From the NCBI RefSeq assembly GCF_030418305.1, contig NZ_JAUHPX010000001.1:558001-622000 (forward strand): a stretch of 64,000 bases of DNA. Reading direction: 5' to 3'. A program made the translations under genes and the position numbers. Below are positions 37,293 to 43,125 of this stretch, piece after piece (position 1 is the stretch's first letter; each line of letters opens with the position of its first letter). A model generated the notes under the pieces. It saw only the letters and a list, made by a program, of their open reading frames with translations, was not told where the DNA came from and did no database searches. Source of the DNA: Demequina lignilytica. GTDB lineage: Bacteria; Actinomycetota; Actinomycetes; Actinomycetales; Demequinaceae.

Positions 37293-37967
37293 CTAGCGGA
37301 TGAGCCAGACGGCCACCGCGGTGGCCGGAGGGATGGTGGCGGTCTCCGCCTCACCATCGACGGCGACCTGGACACCCTCCGAGGTCCTCCCCAGCACCCG
37401 GATCGTTGCGTCCGGCACCAATCCTAGGGCCGAGAGGTCCCGCAGAACCGCGGGGTCGGCGTCGGACAGGCGGGTGACGCGCCACTGCCCCGCGTCGGCT
37501 GCGTCGAGGCCGGTGCCGTCGAGCACCTCGATGCGCCCGGAGCGGGTCGGGATCGGGTCGCCGTGCGGATCCCGGGTCGGGTGGCCCAGCATGCGGTCGA
37601 GCGCATCGATCATGCGGGTGGAGCACGCGTGCTCGAGCACCTCCGCCTCGTCGTGGACCTCGTCCCAGCCGTAGCCGAGCTGCGTGACCAGGAACGTCTC
37701 GATCAGGCGGTGCCGCCGCACCATGTCGAGCGCGCACCGCTCGCCGTCGGCGGTGAGCGTGATCGCCCCGTAGGGCTCGTGATCGAGCAGGCCCGCGGCC
37801 GCCAGCTTGCGCACGTTCTCGGACACGGTCGGGGCGGACACCCCGAGGCGCTCCGCGAGCATCTTGGTGGTCACGGGCGCGTCCGACCACTCGGTGGCGC
37901 CCCACACGATCTTCACGTAGTCCTGCGCCGTGGCGGAGAGGGTCTGCGGGTCGATCGGCATCGTCAC
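37293..37967 (-). CDS. DtxR/MntR-family metal-dependent regulator
   Basis: 224-aa regulator. An N-terminal winged helix comes first (AQDYVKIVWGATEWSDAPVTTKMLAERLGVSAPTVSENVRKLAAAGLLDHEPYGAITLT). A dimerisation/metal-binding region follows (RRHRLIETFLVTQLGYGWDEVHDEAEVLEHACS) and a C-terminal SH3/FeoA-like domain ends the protein. The EVHDEAE...HACS pattern holds likely metal ligands. GTG at 37967 overlaps the copC stop; an ATG two codons later (37961) is an alternative. Iron or manganese would be the expected signal, but the ligand set cannot be settled by eye. Confidence 0.92.
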   Translation of the reverse strand: MTMPIDPQTLSATAQDYVKIVWGATEWSDAPVTTKMLAERLGVSAPTVSENVRKLAAAGLLDHEPYGAITLTADGERCALDMVRRHRLIETFLVTQLGYGWDEVHDEAEVLEHACSTRMIDALDRMLGHPTRDPHGDPIPTRSGRIEVLDGTGLDAADAGQWRVTRLSDADPAVLRDLSALGLVPDATIRVLGRTSEGVQVAVDGEAETATIPPATAVAVWLIR

Positions 37968-38578
37968 CCCCGTCCCGCGCCGCGACCTCGCATCAGGATC
38001 ACCGCGGTGGCGACCACGGCGATGGCGCCCGCGCCCCCCAGGATCCAGCCCCAGCCGGGCACCCCCGCGGTCGCGGCGACAGCGTCGGGCGTCGCCGACG
38101 GGGTCGGCGAGGACGACTCCGGGGTCTCCGAGGCCGAGGGGGACGATCCGGGCGTCGCCGTCGCCGTCACCGTCACCACGGGCGCGGGGCTCGGCGTGGG
38201 CTCCTCGGGCGCGTAGGTGAACGCGATCGATCCCTCGATCGGGTGGCCGTCTGCCGACACGACGCGGAACCGCAGCGTGTTCTCCCCCGGCGCGATCGCT
38301 CCCTCCGGCACGGGCGCGGTGACGGTCTCGGTCACGTCACCGATCTCGAGCTCGGTGGGGGTGCCGTCGGGCGCCACCAGCACCAGCTCGTTGCCGATGT
38401 CGAGCAGCTGCTCGGTGAACTCGAGGGAGACCTCCGTGAGCTCTGTGACGGTGTCGCCGTCGGCGGGGCTGGAGGAGACGAGCGCGGTGTGGGCGGCCGC
38501 CGGCGCCGCGAGCGCGAGCGCGGCCAGCAGCGCCGCCGCCGCGGCGAGGCCGTGACGGACCAGAGCAGTGACGGACAT
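37964..38578 (-). CDS. CopC-domain copper resistance protein
   Basis: 204-aa exported protein. The signal peptide (hydrophobic core to about residue 28) ends AAPAAAHTALVSSSPADG, so cleavage would expose the Cu-binding N-terminal His typical of CopC. The second conserved site is in VSADGHPIEGSIAFTY. A Ser/Thr/Pro linker at about 125-165 is followed by a C-terminal membrane helix and an Arg-rich tail, so it is anchored on the outer face. It overlaps the metal regulator downstream by 4 bases. Confidence 0.93.
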   Translation of the reverse strand: MSVTALVRHGLAAAAALLAALALAAPAAAHTALVSSSPADGDTVTELTEVSLEFTEQLLDIGNELVLVAPDGTPTELEIGDVTETVTAPVPEGAIAPGENTLRFRVVSADGHPIEGSIAFTYAPEEPTPSPAPVVTVTATATPGSSPSASETPESSSPTPSATPDAVAATAGVPGWGWILGGAGAIAVVATAVILMRGRGAGRG

Positions 38579-38613: not shown

Positions 38614-38687
38614 GTCACCGGATGGTCACCCGATGGTCACCGGCGCTCAAGCGGGCGGTCACCGTTCCGTCGTCCGCGGCTGTCACC
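38614..38687. promoter_or_regulatory. 11-bp-phased GTCACC iterons (PhoP-box-like)
   Basis: GTCACC occurs at 38614, 38625, 38636, 38658 and 38682. The first three starts are exactly 11 bp apart and the fourth is 22 bp further. The site lies between copC (minus) and the mannosyltransferase pair (plus). The arrangement resembles Streptomyces PHO boxes, which are 11-nt direct repeats with a GTTCACC core. Confidence 0.5.
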
Positions 38688-38695
38688 GTGAGGGT

Positions 38696-39817
38696 GTGAA
38701 GATCGCGCTGGTCGCAGAGTCCTTCCTCCCCCACACCAACGGGGTCACCCACTCGCTCCTGCGGGTCCTGGATCACCTCGCCGCCCGCGGCGACGACGCC
38801 GTGGTGATCGCACCCGAGGCACCCGGGGCGCCCGACCGCGTGGGCGACGCCCCGGTGGTCCACGTGCCCGCCGTCGGCTGGCCGGGCTACCGCGACGTGC
38901 GGGTCGCCACCCGCGGCGTCCGCACCCTCGCGCGGGTGCTCGAGCGGACCGCGCCGGACGTGGTCCACCTCGCGTCGCCGTTCGTGCTCGGCTGGGCCGC
39001 GGTGCGCGCGGCCGCCGCGGTCCGCGTGCCGGCTGTCGCCGTGTACCAGACGGACGTGCCGTCCTACGCGGCGGCGTACGGCGCCCCCTGGGGCGAGCCG
39101 CTCCTCTGGAATCGCGTGCGCAGCATCCACACCGCAGCCGACCTCACCCTCGCGCCGTCGACCGCGGCGATCGCCCAGCTCGGGGCTCTCGGCGTCGACC
39201 GGCTCGCGCTCTGGCCCCGCGGCGTGGACACGGTGCGGTTCGACCCGTCCCGCCGCGACGCCGCGCTCCGCGCGCGGTGGGCGCCGGGCGGCGAGGTCGT
39301 CGTGGGCTACGTCGGGCGCCTCGCCCCCGAGAAGCGCGTGGGCGACCTGGCGAGGATCGCCCGGATGCCGGGCGTCCGGGTGGTGGTGATCGGCGAGGGA
39401 CCCGAGGGGGCCCGCCTCCGCCGCCGGGTCCCCGAGGCGGAGTTCGCAGGGTTCCTCGGTGGCGGCGAGCTCGCCCGCGCCGTCGCGAGCCTCGACGTCA
39501 TGGTGCACCCGGGCGAGCTCGAGACCTTCGGGCAGTCGGTGCAGGAGGCGCTGGCCGCCGGGGTGCCGGTGATCGCGCCTCGTGCCGGCGGCCCGGTGGA
39601 TCTCATCCGGCACGGTGAGAACGGGTTCCTCTACGCGCCGGGACGGCTCGACCAGATGGCTCACGCCGTCCAGTCCCTGGTGGACGACCCGTACCTGCGC
39701 CTCCTGATGGGCGCTCATGCCCGCGTCTCGGTGGAGGGCCGCACCTGGCCGCGCGTGTGCGCCACCCTGGTCGACCACTACCGCGCCGTCACGGCGCCCA
39801 CGGGAGCGCACCGATGA
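38696..39817 (+). CDS. GT4 glycosyltransferase, MgtA/PimB-like alpha-mannosyltransferase
   Basis: 373-aa GT-B enzyme. The N-terminus KIALVAESFLPHTNGVTHSLLRVLDHL closely resembles actinobacterial GDP-mannose-dependent MgtA. GYVGRLAPEKRVGDLARI, VVVIGEGPEGARLRR and the donor-site EALAAGVPVIAPRAGGPVDLI motif (with HPGELETFGQSVQEA before it) follow. It probably mannosylates a lipid acceptor at the inner membrane face. The GTG start at 38696 lacks an obvious ribosome-binding site. The stop overlaps the next glycosyltransferase by 4 bases. Confidence 0.92.
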   Translation: MKIALVAESFLPHTNGVTHSLLRVLDHLAARGDDAVVIAPEAPGAPDRVGDAPVVHVPAVGWPGYRDVRVATRGVRTLARVLERTAPDVVHLASPFVLGWAAVRAAAAVRVPAVAVYQTDVPSYAAAYGAPWGEPLLWNRVRSIHTAADLTLAPSTAAIAQLGALGVDRLALWPRGVDTVRFDPSRRDAALRARWAPGGEVVVGYVGRLAPEKRVGDLARIARMPGVRVVVIGEGPEGARLRRRVPEAEFAGFLGGGELARAVASLDVMVHPGELETFGQSVQEALAAGVPVIAPRAGGPVDLIRHGENGFLYAPGRLDQMAHAVQSLVDDPYLRLLMGAHARVSVEGRTWPRVCATLVDHYRAVTAPTGAHR

Positions 39818-40938
39818 GGATCGCCCAGGTCGCCAACTTCCACGGCCCCCGCTCCGGCGGCCTGCGGACGGCGCTGCGCGCGCTGGGACGCGGCTACGTC
39901 GACAGCGGCGACGACGTGCTGCTCGTGGTGCCGGGCGACCGCGATCACGCCGAGGACACGCCGCAGGGGCACCTCGTGACCCTGCACAGCCCGGCGCTGC
40001 CCGGCTCCGGCGGCTATCGCGTGATCACGAGGCTCGCCGCCGTGAAGGAAATCCTGGCGAGGTTCGCTCCCGACGCGCTCGAGGTCCACGATCGCACCAC
40101 GCTGATCCCGCTCGCGGACTGGGCGCGACGGCGCCGCGTCGTGACCGCCTTCGTCGCGCACGAACGGGCCGACGGGGTCCTCGCCGGCCTCGCGCCGCGC
40201 GCCGGGGTGGCAGCCGCACGGCGGCTGGCCGCCGCTCACTCCCGCGACGTCGCCCGCCGGTTCGACCTCGTGGTCGCCACCACCTCGTTCGCCGGCGAGG
40301 AGCTCGCTCGGGCGGGCGCGCGCGTCGACACCGTCCCGTTGGGCGTCGACCTCCTGACGTTCGATCCGCGGCGGCACTCGCCCCTCGCGCGCCGCGCACT
40401 TGCGCGCCCCGAGGAGACGCTCGTGGTGCTCGCGTCCCGGCTGTCCTCGGAGAAGCGGCCCGAGATCGCGGTGGAGGCCGTGCGCGAGCTCGCCGCGCGA
40501 GGGCGCCCCGTCCGGCTCGTCGTCGCAGGCTCCGGCCCGCTGGACCGTCGCCTGCGCCGCCGGGCGCGCGACCTGCCGGTGGAGTTCGTCGGCTTCGTCG
40601 ACGACCGCCGCACCTATGCCGCCCTGCTCGCCAGCGCGGACGTGCTGGTCGCACCGGGTCCCATCGAGACCTTCGGGCTCGCGGCGCTCGAGGGGCTCGC
40701 CTCGGGCACCCCGGCGGTGGTGAATCGCGCGTCGGCGCTTCCCGAGGTGGTCGGCGCCGCCGGGATCGGCGCCGAGGGCACGCCCGACGCGTTCGCCGAC
40801 GGCGTCGAGGCGATCCTCGCGCGGGACGGGCGCGAGCGCCGGCTCGCCGCACGCTCGCGCGCGGAGGAGCTGCCGTGGCACGCGACCGTCGCGCGGATGC
40901 GGGCGCTCCACGTCGGCGCGCTGGCGGGCCTGCGATGA
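39814..40938 (+). CDS. GT4 glycosyltransferase
   Basis: 374-aa GT-B enzyme, coupled to the previous gene by an ATGA overlap. RIAQVANFHGPRSGGLRTALRALGRGYVDSGDDVLLVVPG forms the acceptor-side start. LVVLASRLSSEKRPEIAVEAVREL and GPIETFGLAALEGLASGTPAVVNRASALPEV form the nucleotide-sugar side with the catalytic-site Glu pair. It probably acts in sequence with its neighbour on one glycolipid or glycan. The sugar donor is not known. Confidence 0.91.
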   Translation: MRIAQVANFHGPRSGGLRTALRALGRGYVDSGDDVLLVVPGDRDHAEDTPQGHLVTLHSPALPGSGGYRVITRLAAVKEILARFAPDALEVHDRTTLIPLADWARRRRVVTAFVAHERADGVLAGLAPRAGVAAARRLAAAHSRDVARRFDLVVATTSFAGEELARAGARVDTVPLGVDLLTFDPRRHSPLARRALARPEETLVVLASRLSSEKRPEIAVEAVRELAARGRPVRLVVAGSGPLDRRLRRRARDLPVEFVGFVDDRRTYAALLASADVLVAPGPIETFGLAALEGLASGTPAVVNRASALPEVVGAAGIGAEGTPDAFADGVEAILARDGRERRLAARSRAEELPWHATVARMRALHVGALAGLR

Positions 40939-41729
40939 CGGGGCCCCGCGTGGTCGCGCTCGGCGACTCGATCACGCTCGGCGTCGGTGACGGGGTGCAG
41001 GACGCGCGCGGCGACGTCGGATGGGCGGCGCTGGCCGCCCGCGCGCTCGGCGCGGCCTCGTTCCTGAACCTGGCCCGCAACGGCGCACGCGCGCGCGATC
41101 TCCGCGACCGTCAGCTCCCCGCCGCGCTGGCGGCCATGCCCGACCTCGCGCTCATCACCGTCGGCGGCAACGATGCGCTGCGGGGCGACTTCTCCCCGGT
41201 CGAGCTGGAGACCGCGCTCGGGCAGGTCATCGACGTCCTGGAGGATGCGGGCTGCCGCGTGGTGACCGTCTCCCTCGACCGGATCGGGCTGTTCGACCTC
41301 GCCCCGAAGGCCGTCGCGGAGGCCATGGCGGCGCGCATCGGCGCCGTGAACGGGGCGATCGCGCGGGCGGTGGCACCCACCGACGCGGTCGTGATCGACG
41401 GGGCGACGCTCCTGGCGTCGCTGGGTCGCCGCGCGTGGCACGTCGACCGGATCCATCCCTCGCCGGCCGGACACCGCGCGCTCGCTCGCGCCGGCGCGCG
41501 GGCGGTCGAGGGCGAGTGGCCCGCCGTGGAGGGGATCCCCGCGGCACCGGCGCCGCCCGGCGCTCTCGCCGTGGTCGCGTGGCTCGTGGTCAACGGCCTG
41601 CCGTGGGCGGTGAAGCGCTCCCGTGACCTGCTGCCCCAGGTCACCCTGGTGGTCGCGCGCGAGCTGAGGCACGAACGGCGGGCGCGCCGCGAGGGGCGCA
41701 CCCGCCGTACGTTGCCCGGAGCCGGCTGA
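40935..41729 (+). CDS. SGNH/GDSL hydrolase
   Basis: 264-aa protein with the four SGNH blocks: GDSITLG (nucleophile Ser), the NLARNGARARDL Gly block, TVGGNDALRG (Asn block) and DRIHPSPAGHRALA (Asp-His pair). After about residue 205 comes a hydrophobic segment (ALAVVAWLVVNGLPWAVK) and a basic tail. There is no signal peptide. It is coupled by ATGA overlap to two glycosyltransferases, so it may deacylate or acylate their glycolipid product. Confidence 0.92.
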   Translation: MTGPRVVALGDSITLGVGDGVQDARGDVGWAALAARALGAASFLNLARNGARARDLRDRQLPAALAAMPDLALITVGGNDALRGDFSPVELETALGQVIDVLEDAGCRVVTVSLDRIGLFDLAPKAVAEAMAARIGAVNGAIARAVAPTDAVVIDGATLLASLGRRAWHVDRIHPSPAGHRALARAGARAVEGEWPAVEGIPAAPAPPGALAVVAWLVVNGLPWAVKRSRDLLPQVTLVVARELRHERRARREGRTRRTLPGAG

Positions 41730-41750: not shown

Positions 41751-42305
41751 TCAGACCAGCCAGCTCTTCTCGCCGACCATCCCGCGCCACCATCGGCCGA
41801 GGCCGATCGACTGGTGCTCGAGCTCCACCAGCACGATCGCAGGGATCGCGAGGCCCATGATGATGTGGTCGTCCAGGAACGGGTTCGTGGTCGGCCACAG
41901 GTGCGACGTGTACATCATGAGCAGCATGAGCGGCGCCGTCCACGCGGCGACCTTGGTGCCGATGCCCAGCATCAGCGCGAGCCCGATGCCGGCGAGACCG
42001 ATCATGAAGATCCAGTCGGTCCACCTGTACTGTCCGAGGTTCGAGTAGAAGTCGGCGAGGGGCCCGGTGGCCGAGCCGAGGTAGCCCTCGGTCACGTGAC
42101 CGCCGGAGAGCCAGGCGCGGTCGCACATGACGGTGGTGACGCCGGTCTCCGAGTCCTTGCAGGTCGAGTAGCCGAGCCCGATCAGCTTGTCGAAGAACGG
42201 CCAGAGGAAGTAGAAGCCCAGCGCGATGCGCGTGATGCTGAGGAGCGCCCATCCCGCGCGGCTGCGCGTGACCTCGCTCGTGGTGGTCGGTTCCGCTGTT
42301 GCCAT
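41751..42305 (-). CDS. DoxX-like membrane protein 1
   Basis: 184-aa protein with about four membrane segments: ALLSITRIALGFYFLWPFFDKLIGLGYS, WIFMIGLAGIGLALMLGIGTKVAAW, PLMLLMMYTSHL and IIMGLAIPAIVLVELEH. The FYFLWPFFDK motif is typical of DoxX. A Cys-containing extracytoplasmic loop (STCKDSE to VMCDRAW) separates the first two. It is a close paralogue of the gene at 42476-43057. A GGGGGAT ribosome-binding site precedes the ATG. Function unknown; DoxX proteins are linked to redox and quinone-related roles. Confidence 0.9.
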   Translation of the reverse strand: MATAEPTTTSEVTRSRAGWALLSITRIALGFYFLWPFFDKLIGLGYSTCKDSETGVTTVMCDRAWLSGGHVTEGYLGSATGPLADFYSNLGQYRWTDWIFMIGLAGIGLALMLGIGTKVAAWTAPLMLLMMYTSHLWPTTNPFLDDHIIMGLAIPAIVLVELEHQSIGLGRWWRGMVGEKSWLV

Positions 42306-42475: not shown

Positions 42476-43057
42476 CTAGACCAACCAGCCGTTCTTCTGC
42501 ACGACCGGCAGCGAGCGCCACCAGCGGCCGAGGCCGACCGACTGGCGCTCCTTCTCGACCAGCACGATCGCGGCGATCGCGAGGATGTAGATGAGGTGCT
42601 CGTCGAGGATCGGGTTGGTGACCGTCGGCATCTGCGTCAGGTACATGAAGAACAGCATGAGGCCGGCCGACCACGCGCCGATCTTGGTGCCGATGCCGAG
42701 CATCAGGGCGACGCCGACGCCGGCGAGGCCGAGCATGAACGGCCAGTCGGTCCAGCGCTCGGCGCCGAGGTTCACGAAGAACTCGTGGAACGGGCTGTTG
42801 ACGTTGCCGCCGTAGACCAGGTAGCCCTCGGTCACGGACCCGCCGTTGACCCACGCCCTCTCGCAGAAGGCGTCGATCGTGAAGGTCCCGTCCTCGGCGA
42901 CGGTCCGGCACACGGAGTAGCCGAGGCCCAGGAGCTTGTCGAGGAAGGCCCACAGGAAGTAGAAGCCGAGCGCGATGCGGGTGACGCTCAGCAGCGTCCA
43001 GCCGACCTTCGAGCGGGTGACGACCGCGGCCTCCGCGGTCTGAACGGTGTCTGCCAT
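42476..43057 (-). CDS. DoxX-like membrane protein 2
   Basis: 193-aa paralogue of the previous gene with the same layout: TLLSVTRIALGFYFLWAFLDKLLGLGYS, a Cys-containing loop (SVCRTVAED to AFCERAW), SVTEGYLVYGG and three further membrane segments. Both end in a GLGRWWR...WLV tail. An SD-like GGAGAG precedes the ATG at 43057. The two Cys residues in the first loop are conserved in both copies and may form a disulfide. Confidence 0.9.
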   Translation of the reverse strand: MADTVQTAEAAVVTRSKVGWTLLSVTRIALGFYFLWAFLDKLLGLGYSVCRTVAEDGTFTIDAFCERAWVNGGSVTEGYLVYGGNVNSPFHEFFVNLGAERWTDWPFMLGLAGVGVALMLGIGTKIGAWSAGLMLFFMYLTQMPTVTNPILDEHLIYILAIAAIVLVEKERQSVGLGRWWRSLPVVQKNGWLV

Positions 43058-43125
43058 TGTTCTCTCCAGATGAGGTGCGGGCCGGGGCCCGGCGGCGCTG
43101 GGGGTAGCGCCTGCGGCCAACTTAT

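Follow-up and report, generated by a model that had tools for sequence, protein, structure and literature searches.

Two glycosyltransferase genes and a hydrolase gene were found head to tail in a 64-kb stretch of Demequina lignilytica DNA (C1:558001-622000 of a 2.9-Mb assembly of 18 contigs), which is referred to as the window. They are preceded by a repeat array that reads toward the first gene, mgtA (Table 1). The strand opposite to the operon carries genes for CopC, an MntR/DtxR-type regulator, and an MFS transporter.

Table 1. Features of the mgtA locus (positions in the window).
Feature	Position	Strand	Evidence
CopC-domain protein, divergent neighbour	37964..38578	-	Pfam
Core PHO-box-like array, 3 direct repeat units GTCACCGGATG GTCACCCGATG GTCACC, 11-bp phased	38614..38641	+	Pattern searches; matrix trained on pstS
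Fourth GTCACC, in register, 22 bp past the third; possible ancillary unit	38658..38663	+	Sequence
GTCGTCC, putative weak in-register unit	38669..38675	+	Inferred from sequence and by-eye comparison with relatives
Predicted -10 element (CACCGT), six bases ahead of GTG	38684..38689	+	Consensus of upstream regions
MgtA-like GT4 glycosyltransferase, GTG start	38696..39817	+	Pfam Glyco_transf_4 and Glycos_transf_1
Second GT4 glycosyltransferase, overlapping the first by ATGA	39814..40938	+	Pfam; overlap read in sequence
SGNH/GDSL hydrolase, overlapping the second glycosyltransferase by ATGA	40935..41729	+	Pfam; overlap read in sequence

The MgtA-like protein contains N- and C-terminal GT4 domains and the EX7E motif typical of GT4 enzymes (ETFGQSVQE); its counterparts in the nearest named species of Demequina share 79-82% identity with it. 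Over 349 columns, the two glycosyltransferases of the operon are 32% identical. An earlier note, made from the sequence alone, had described an MgtA-like enzyme, a second GT4 enzyme, and an SGNH hydrolase downstream of the array; the Pfam domains agree with two GT4 enzymes and a hydrolase of this kind. The best NCBIfam match of both glycosyltransferases was NF053787, an N-acetylglucosaminyl phosphatidylglycerol synthase (171.3 and 158.8 bits); the assignment of both as GlcN-PG synthases was rejected because these scores are far below the curated cut-off of 480 bits. Two adjacent minus-strand genes of the window (41754-42305 and 42479-43102) appear by eye to encode DoxX-like membrane proteins; they gave no Pfam match at 0.001 and are retained next to it in the majority of Demequina loci.

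The divergent CopC gene and the second glycosyltransferase gene were present in all 14 Demequinaceae loci compared, and the SGNH hydrolase gene in 13. A divergent CopC gene was not seen in 63 other loci, some of which have little upstream sequence; CopC-like matches were located about 3.4 kb downstream in loci L050 and L107. That CopC may share the control of the operon, as raised in the earlier note, is conjectural. Both a glycosyltransferase and an SGNH hydrolase gene follow mgtA in Nakamurella (L058) and Rugosimonospora (L065) among these 63 loci, and a glycosyltransferase gene only in Spirilliplanes (L095). Among 20 order-level loci, genome G048 has both partners, G041 the glycosyltransferase only, and G076 a weak SGNH match. 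Outside the Demequinaceae, the two partners are found behind mgtA in some lineages only.

The hexamer GTCACC starts at positions 38614, 38625, 38636, 38658, and 38682, that is, at steps of 11, 11, 22, and 24 bp, which agrees with the earlier description of five copies, three of them at exact 11-bp steps. Four copies share one 11-bp register. That all five are iterons was rejected, since the fifth copy is out of register and overlaps the -10-like element (38682-38687 and 38684-38689, respectively); of the five iterons proposed earlier, the first three form the core array, the fourth may be an ancillary unit, and the fifth is not supported. Because it overlaps a modestly conserved -10-like hexamer, the fifth copy is probably part of the promoter and not of the operator. 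Close relatives carry GCAACC or GACACC at the position of the fourth copy, and several have a GTTCGCC-like sequence in place of GTCGTCC. Examined as a PHO box, the array contained at least two 11-nt direct repeat units with a conserved TCACC core.

It was considered whether a common hexamer had clustered here by chance, as GTCACC is about twice as frequent in the window as predicted by shuffling (101 copies, 52.8 expected). However, when the observed 51 plus-strand and 50 minus-strand copies were scattered at random over the window, one strand-trial in 40,000 produced an exact 11-bp triple, and one in 40,000 packed five copies into 74 bp. Weaker evidence came from a looser test allowing up to three mismatches to the three-unit GTCACC pattern: 0.23 matches were expected per shuffle and 21 of 100 shuffles contained at least one; the match in the window itself has zero mismatches. 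GTCACC-N5-GTCACC occurs three times in the whole genome; two of these are the overlapping pairs of the array and the third lies within a predicted ORF on contig C14. Recurrence of 11-bp TCAY pairs, which 24 of 30 Demequina genomes contain, and a preferred site position in other families, both described below, also argue against coincidence. The array is not a product of chance, and we give next to no credence to a random cluster.

Upstream regions were aligned at the start codon, with L215 excluded, to obtain a -10 consensus. Positions -12 to -7 read AACAAT in 29 Demequina sequences (45-55% per base) and AACCTT in 66 others (35-58% per base); a G at -6 was found in 83% and 79%, respectively. 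The spacing of CACCGT suggests a leaderless mRNA beginning with the GTG codon.

The same kind of repeat was searched for at the phosphate genes of this genome. The pstS gene is located at C13:215523-216473 and phoU at C13:218810; between them lie genes for an OmpR-family regulator and a PnpS/PhoR-like kinase. The best NCBIfam scores of the regulator were those of YycF and MtrA, with PhoB fifth and all under the cut-off, as were all scores of the kinase; we call the regulator PhoP/RegX3-type because of its place between pstS and phoU. Exact matches to GKTCAYC-N4-GKTCAYC were found five times in 2.9 Mb, namely at the mgtA locus, upstream of pstS, in the senX3/phoU intergenic region, and at two places lacking a convincing promoter position (C13:27168, between two minus-strand ORFs, and C16:97375); the reversed-pattern control gave two matches at up to one mismatch. 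The three-unit pattern KTCAY-N6-KTCAY-N6-KTCAY, with one mismatch allowed, occurred genome-wide only at the mgtA locus (no mismatch) and at pstS (one mismatch), and its reversed control gave none. The earlier note had proposed a scan of the pst and phoU regions and had named absence of the iteron from canonical pho genes as refutation; the same kind of 11-bp repeat is present at the pstS and phoU promoters, so the PHO reading survives.

Matches with one or two mismatches numbered 25 and 23 in two pattern searches of this genome (reversed controls, 1 and 2). Of these, 22 loci were examined with crude GC3 gene calls, and most fall within an ORF or at a distance from any gene of matching orientation. 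Two-mismatch pairs were also observed 97 bp before an ORF resembling a histidine phosphatase (L014) and 115 bp before one resembling a response regulator (L025), both identified by eye. The exact pair at C16:97375-97392 (L033:1501-1518; GGTCATC-N4-GTTCACC) is located 3 bp before an EfeB-like ORF that is preceded by an EfeO-like ORF, as labelled by eye; this pair is probably due to chance.

Conservation within the genus was analyzed in 41 Demequina genomes, including the present one, of which 37 contain a match to the MgtA-like enzyme at E ≤ 1e-60 and 30 provided loci. Exact GKTCAYY-N4-GKTCAYY pairs were present upstream of pstS in 21 of 30 loci, of phoU in 4 of 31, and of mgtA in 1 of 30. Given the poor counts at mgtA and phoU, a weight matrix was used, trained on the pstS boxes of 29 of the 30 Demequina loci with all mgtA sequences excluded; coding stretches of the same loci (122,304 positions) served as background. 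The best site upstream of mgtA exceeded 99.99% of the background on the gene strand in 29 of 30 genomes, as compared to 1 of 30 on the other strand, and exceeded the maximum of all 122,304 positions in 20 of the 30. None of 300 dinucleotide shuffles of the present mgtA upstream region attained its score; across all shuffled mgtA upstream regions, 505 of 9,000 surpassed the 99.99% level and 206 of 9,000 reached the score of the locus from which they were derived. The top site on both strands of the 64-kb window was 38613 with a score of 3.4, followed by the next independent site at -5.6. The fit to the matrix is imperfect, as the pstS site, itself in the training set, scores 43.

In a matrix-free count, the 30 Demequina upstream regions contain 41 TCAY pairs at 11 bp and 24 at 22 bp. 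No other spacing between 5 and 24 was represented more than four times, and the reverse strand gave two in all. Sixteen of the 30 have an 11-bp triple, and six have no 11-bp pair.

Conservation beyond the genus was assessed with reverse strands, column-permuted matrices, shuffles, coding stretches, and whole-locus ranks as controls. At the order level, 77 of 149 genomes contain a match; 72 upstream regions were fetched, 71 of them from outside Demequina, after two of 73 non-Demequina places had been left out (alignments starting at residue 40 or 45). The best two-unit forward site was located between -88 and -58 in 42 of the 71 regions (43 of 72 with the one from Demequina), and on the reverse strand in 15 of 72, where uniform placement predicts 9. 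After deduplication to 69 non-Demequina regions, 41 had their best site in this interval and 35 at -61 to -63, -72 to -74, or -83 to -85, as compared to maxima of 26 and 15 with 300 column-permuted matrices. At the class level, 101 of 197 genomes match; from 88 places outside the order 60 were fetched, picked by family before scoring, and one region of 99 bases was dropped. Here, 38 of 59 best forward sites fell into the interval (reverse strand 10, expectation 7), and 35 of 57 deduplicated regions were in register, the permuted maximum being 13. In both sets none of 300 permuted matrices attained the observed counts. Permutation counts are not to be read as probabilities, since sequences within each set are related.

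Two further sets were treated in the same way. Loci L110 and L111 were excluded as distant relatives. For Nocardia, 18 of 20 deduplicated regions (from 41) had the best site at the preferred position, a count equalled by one of 300 permuted matrices; for a set of Propionibacteriaceae and others it was 16 of 20, equalled by none of 300. The latter set remained at 20 on deduplication, L048 having been excluded beforehand for its short upstream region. Pairs of TC[AG][CT] at spacings from 5 to 19 were commonest at 11 bp in the order and class sets, with 25 and 17 occurrences (next spacing, 5 and 6); the reverse strands gave 5 and 0 pairs at 11 bp.

At least one locus with a site in the interval was found in 12 of 13 families at the order level and 11 of 13 at the class level, although multi-locus families could match by chance; the in-interval loci of families f18 and f19 score poorly. 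The matrix scan found no site between -88 and -58 in families f15, f26, and f35. The assumed start is a non-start codon in f15 and f35, and ATG in f26, which is represented by one genome; many misses in f15, f35, f44, and f45 lack a start codon at that place. Ranks within whole loci were mixed outside Demequina. With the three-unit matrix, the site came first in 30 of 41 Nocardia loci, 7 of 20 others, and 13 of 14 from Demequina; with the two-unit matrix, this was so in 2 of 41, 5 of 20, and 11 of 14, respectively. Single loci outside the genus are often weak and the signal is the shared position. A conserved position before the homologous gene was thus found for the set as a whole, with exceptions among single genomes. 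The resemblance to a PHO box claimed earlier is supported by matching units at pstS and phoU and by recurrence before mgtA in the genus and beyond.

A review defines the PHO box as a pair of 11-nt units, each with seven conserved bases (GTTCACC in Streptomyces coelicolor) and four that are less so (PMC4415409), and the box of pitH2 has four core and two further units (PMC7866108). The Demequina array agrees in its 11-nt head-to-tail units, its TCACC core, and its combination of core and putative weaker ancillary units as in pitH2; in contrast, its units read GTCACC or GGTCACC more than GTTCACC, and it is located 55-83 bp before an apparently leaderless start codon. The array is very probably a PHO box, and PHO control of the mgtA operon is strongly supported.

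It was nevertheless considered that another OmpR-family regulator with 11-bp half-sites (GlnR, MtrA, or a copper regulator) binds the array, and that the likeness to pstS reflects family resemblance. The GlnR box is GTnAC-N6-GnAAC, and GTCAC-N6-GTCAC fits this box as well. Cross-talk of PhoP and GlnR is tabulated at glnA, amtB, and pstS in a review (PMC4415409). However, the sole other three-unit match in the 2.9-Mb genome is that at pstS, and in Demequina the 11-bp pairs of all three genes share an A at unit position +7 (mgtA 28 of 41, pstS 27 of 59, phoU 28 of 34) above the base frequency of 15.5%. Binding of a different regulator is therefore improbable. A more serious alternative accepts PHO control and assigns the operon to envelope polymers, i.e. 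a lipomannan anchor or a wall polysaccharide taking the place of phosphate-rich polymer, instead of bulk replacement of membrane lipid. MgtA of Corynebacterium glutamicum (NCgl0452) acts in ManGlcAGroAc2 synthesis and feeds the lipomannan pool, and inactivation of rv0557 in Mycobacterium tuberculosis lowers LM and LAM (PMC6016242); dimannosyldiacylglycerol is the lipomannan anchor precursor in Micrococcus luteus according to a reference title. Yet M. tuberculosis deprived of phosphate replaces phospholipids by phosphorus-free lipids, with a massive build-up of glucuronosyl-diacylglycerols by a mean of 4100-fold (PMC12722247). We regard a role in envelope polymers in place of lipid replacement as rather unlikely; both roles can be true at once.

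We thus return to PHO-controlled glycolipid synthesis. The earlier note had suggested a phosphate-starvation lipid-remodelling operon; PHO control is supported by the boxes of the own genome, conservation, and the mycobacterial literature, and the lipid product is retained as a presumption. A function as a phosphate-starvation glycolipid operon has moderate probability, and the reading as a whole, a PhoP/RegX3-activated promoter for a glycolipid synthesis operon, appears probable to us. The computation itself shows the repeat, its likeness to the pst and phoU boxes, its conservation and register, and the overlaps of the genes; protein binding, low-phosphate induction, the leaderless start, sugar donor, lipid product, and the role of the hydrolase are what we infer in the following model. 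When phosphate is limiting, the PhoP/RegX3-type regulator whose gene lies between pstS and phoU would, in its phosphorylated form, bind the 11-bp units head to tail. The core would comprise three units between about -83 and -55, with probably weaker ones at -38 and -27. The bound regulator would activate the promoter with its -10 element six bases before GTG and give rise to a leaderless mRNA for two GT4 glycosyltransferases and the SGNH hydrolase, coupled through ATGA overlaps. The first enzyme would be an MgtA-type glycolipid glycosyltransferase, and the operon would most likely build phosphorus-free glycosyl-diacylglycerols that replace phospholipid; the products may be glucuronosyl-diacylglycerol, mannosyl-diacylglycerol, or both, and a lipomannan anchor might be made from them.

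Nocardia MgtA homologues are 47-52% identical to the Demequina protein, and in Nocardia locus L073 a UbiE-family gene directly follows mgtA. We take a UbiE-family gene to be next in order to rv0557 in M. tuberculosis as well. By this analogy of gene order, rv0557 is likely the M. tuberculosis orthologue. Deletion of pstA1 raises rv0557 (mgtA) almost 14-fold (PMC6016242), and Rv0557, udgA, regX3, and pstS3 are raised in one strain with a phosphate-starvation response (PMC3338549). In the RegX3 regulon, an MgtA-type gene is raised when the Pho system is active, as would be predicted for Demequina from its array; the Demequina gene differs in heading an operon with a second GT4 enzyme and an SGNH hydrolase beside copC. 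C. glutamicum MgtA is likened to the Demequina enzyme by the role of glycolipid glycosyltransferase presumed for the latter and not by sequence. Concerning the sugar donor, one nucleotide-sugar dehydrogenase scored above its subfamily cut-off, which makes UDP-glucuronate plausible; the nearest equivalog, TuaD (UDP-glucose 6-dehydrogenase), remained under cut-off. A matrix scan of the dehydrogenase locus (L290) revealed no PHO-like site above a score of -8.

According to abstracts and titles, Agrobacterium, Mesorhizobium, SAR11, and Caulobacter respond to low phosphate with phosphorus-free glycoglycerolipids made by glycosyltransferases; Demequina belongs to a different lineage and is likened by its predicted lipid response, not by enzyme sequence. 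In S. coelicolor, ornithine lipids become major when phosphorus is limited (PMC4686642); there is thus more than one route to phosphorus-free lipids among actinobacteria. Polar lipids of Demequina capsici from TSB cultures comprise DPG, PG, PI, PIMs, and unidentified lipids (PMC11233565); low-phosphate lipid data for Demequina were not found in the literature searched.

The kind of system is already known, and what is notable is the breadth and register of the operator before mgtA. A conserved PHO box at mgtA was not found in the titles and beginnings of abstracts that made up the literature search, subscription papers and supplementary tables being outside its scope. We see equal grounds for and against the wider view that mgtA is an ancestral and nearly class-wide member of the Pho regulon with a fixed 11-bp register (about -62, -73, and -84) and a leaderless promoter. 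If this holds, MgtA-type glycolipid synthesis would be an ancient actinobacterial phosphorus-sparing membrane route, and mgtA would become a candidate for the route to glucuronosyl lipids, the enzymes of which Gray et al. (2025) name as future work. In their view, drug targets could emerge once the enzymes are identified by which M. tuberculosis under phosphate restriction assembles phosphorus-free lipids; neither mgtA nor rv0557 is mentioned in their main text (PMC12722247). A PHO-type operator recurring at one position before a single glycosyltransferase gene in many actinobacterial families provides a candidate that can be tested in a harmless genus. It also suggests an old and general response that is not peculiar to mycobacteria.

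Two minor observations concern the distribution of mgtA. Genomes of 1.2-1.5 Mb in the class-level family f44 (L359-L366) retain the gene; clear repeats at -72 were present in two of the eight regions fetched, and in most others the assumed start is not a start codon. Seven order-level genomes contain two mgtA copies. G139 and G152 have no well-scoring site in the interval at either copy; the other five (G052, G069, G084, and G099 of family f13, and G107 of family f6) have a well-scoring PHO-like site at one copy only and thus offer a natural comparison of paralogues.
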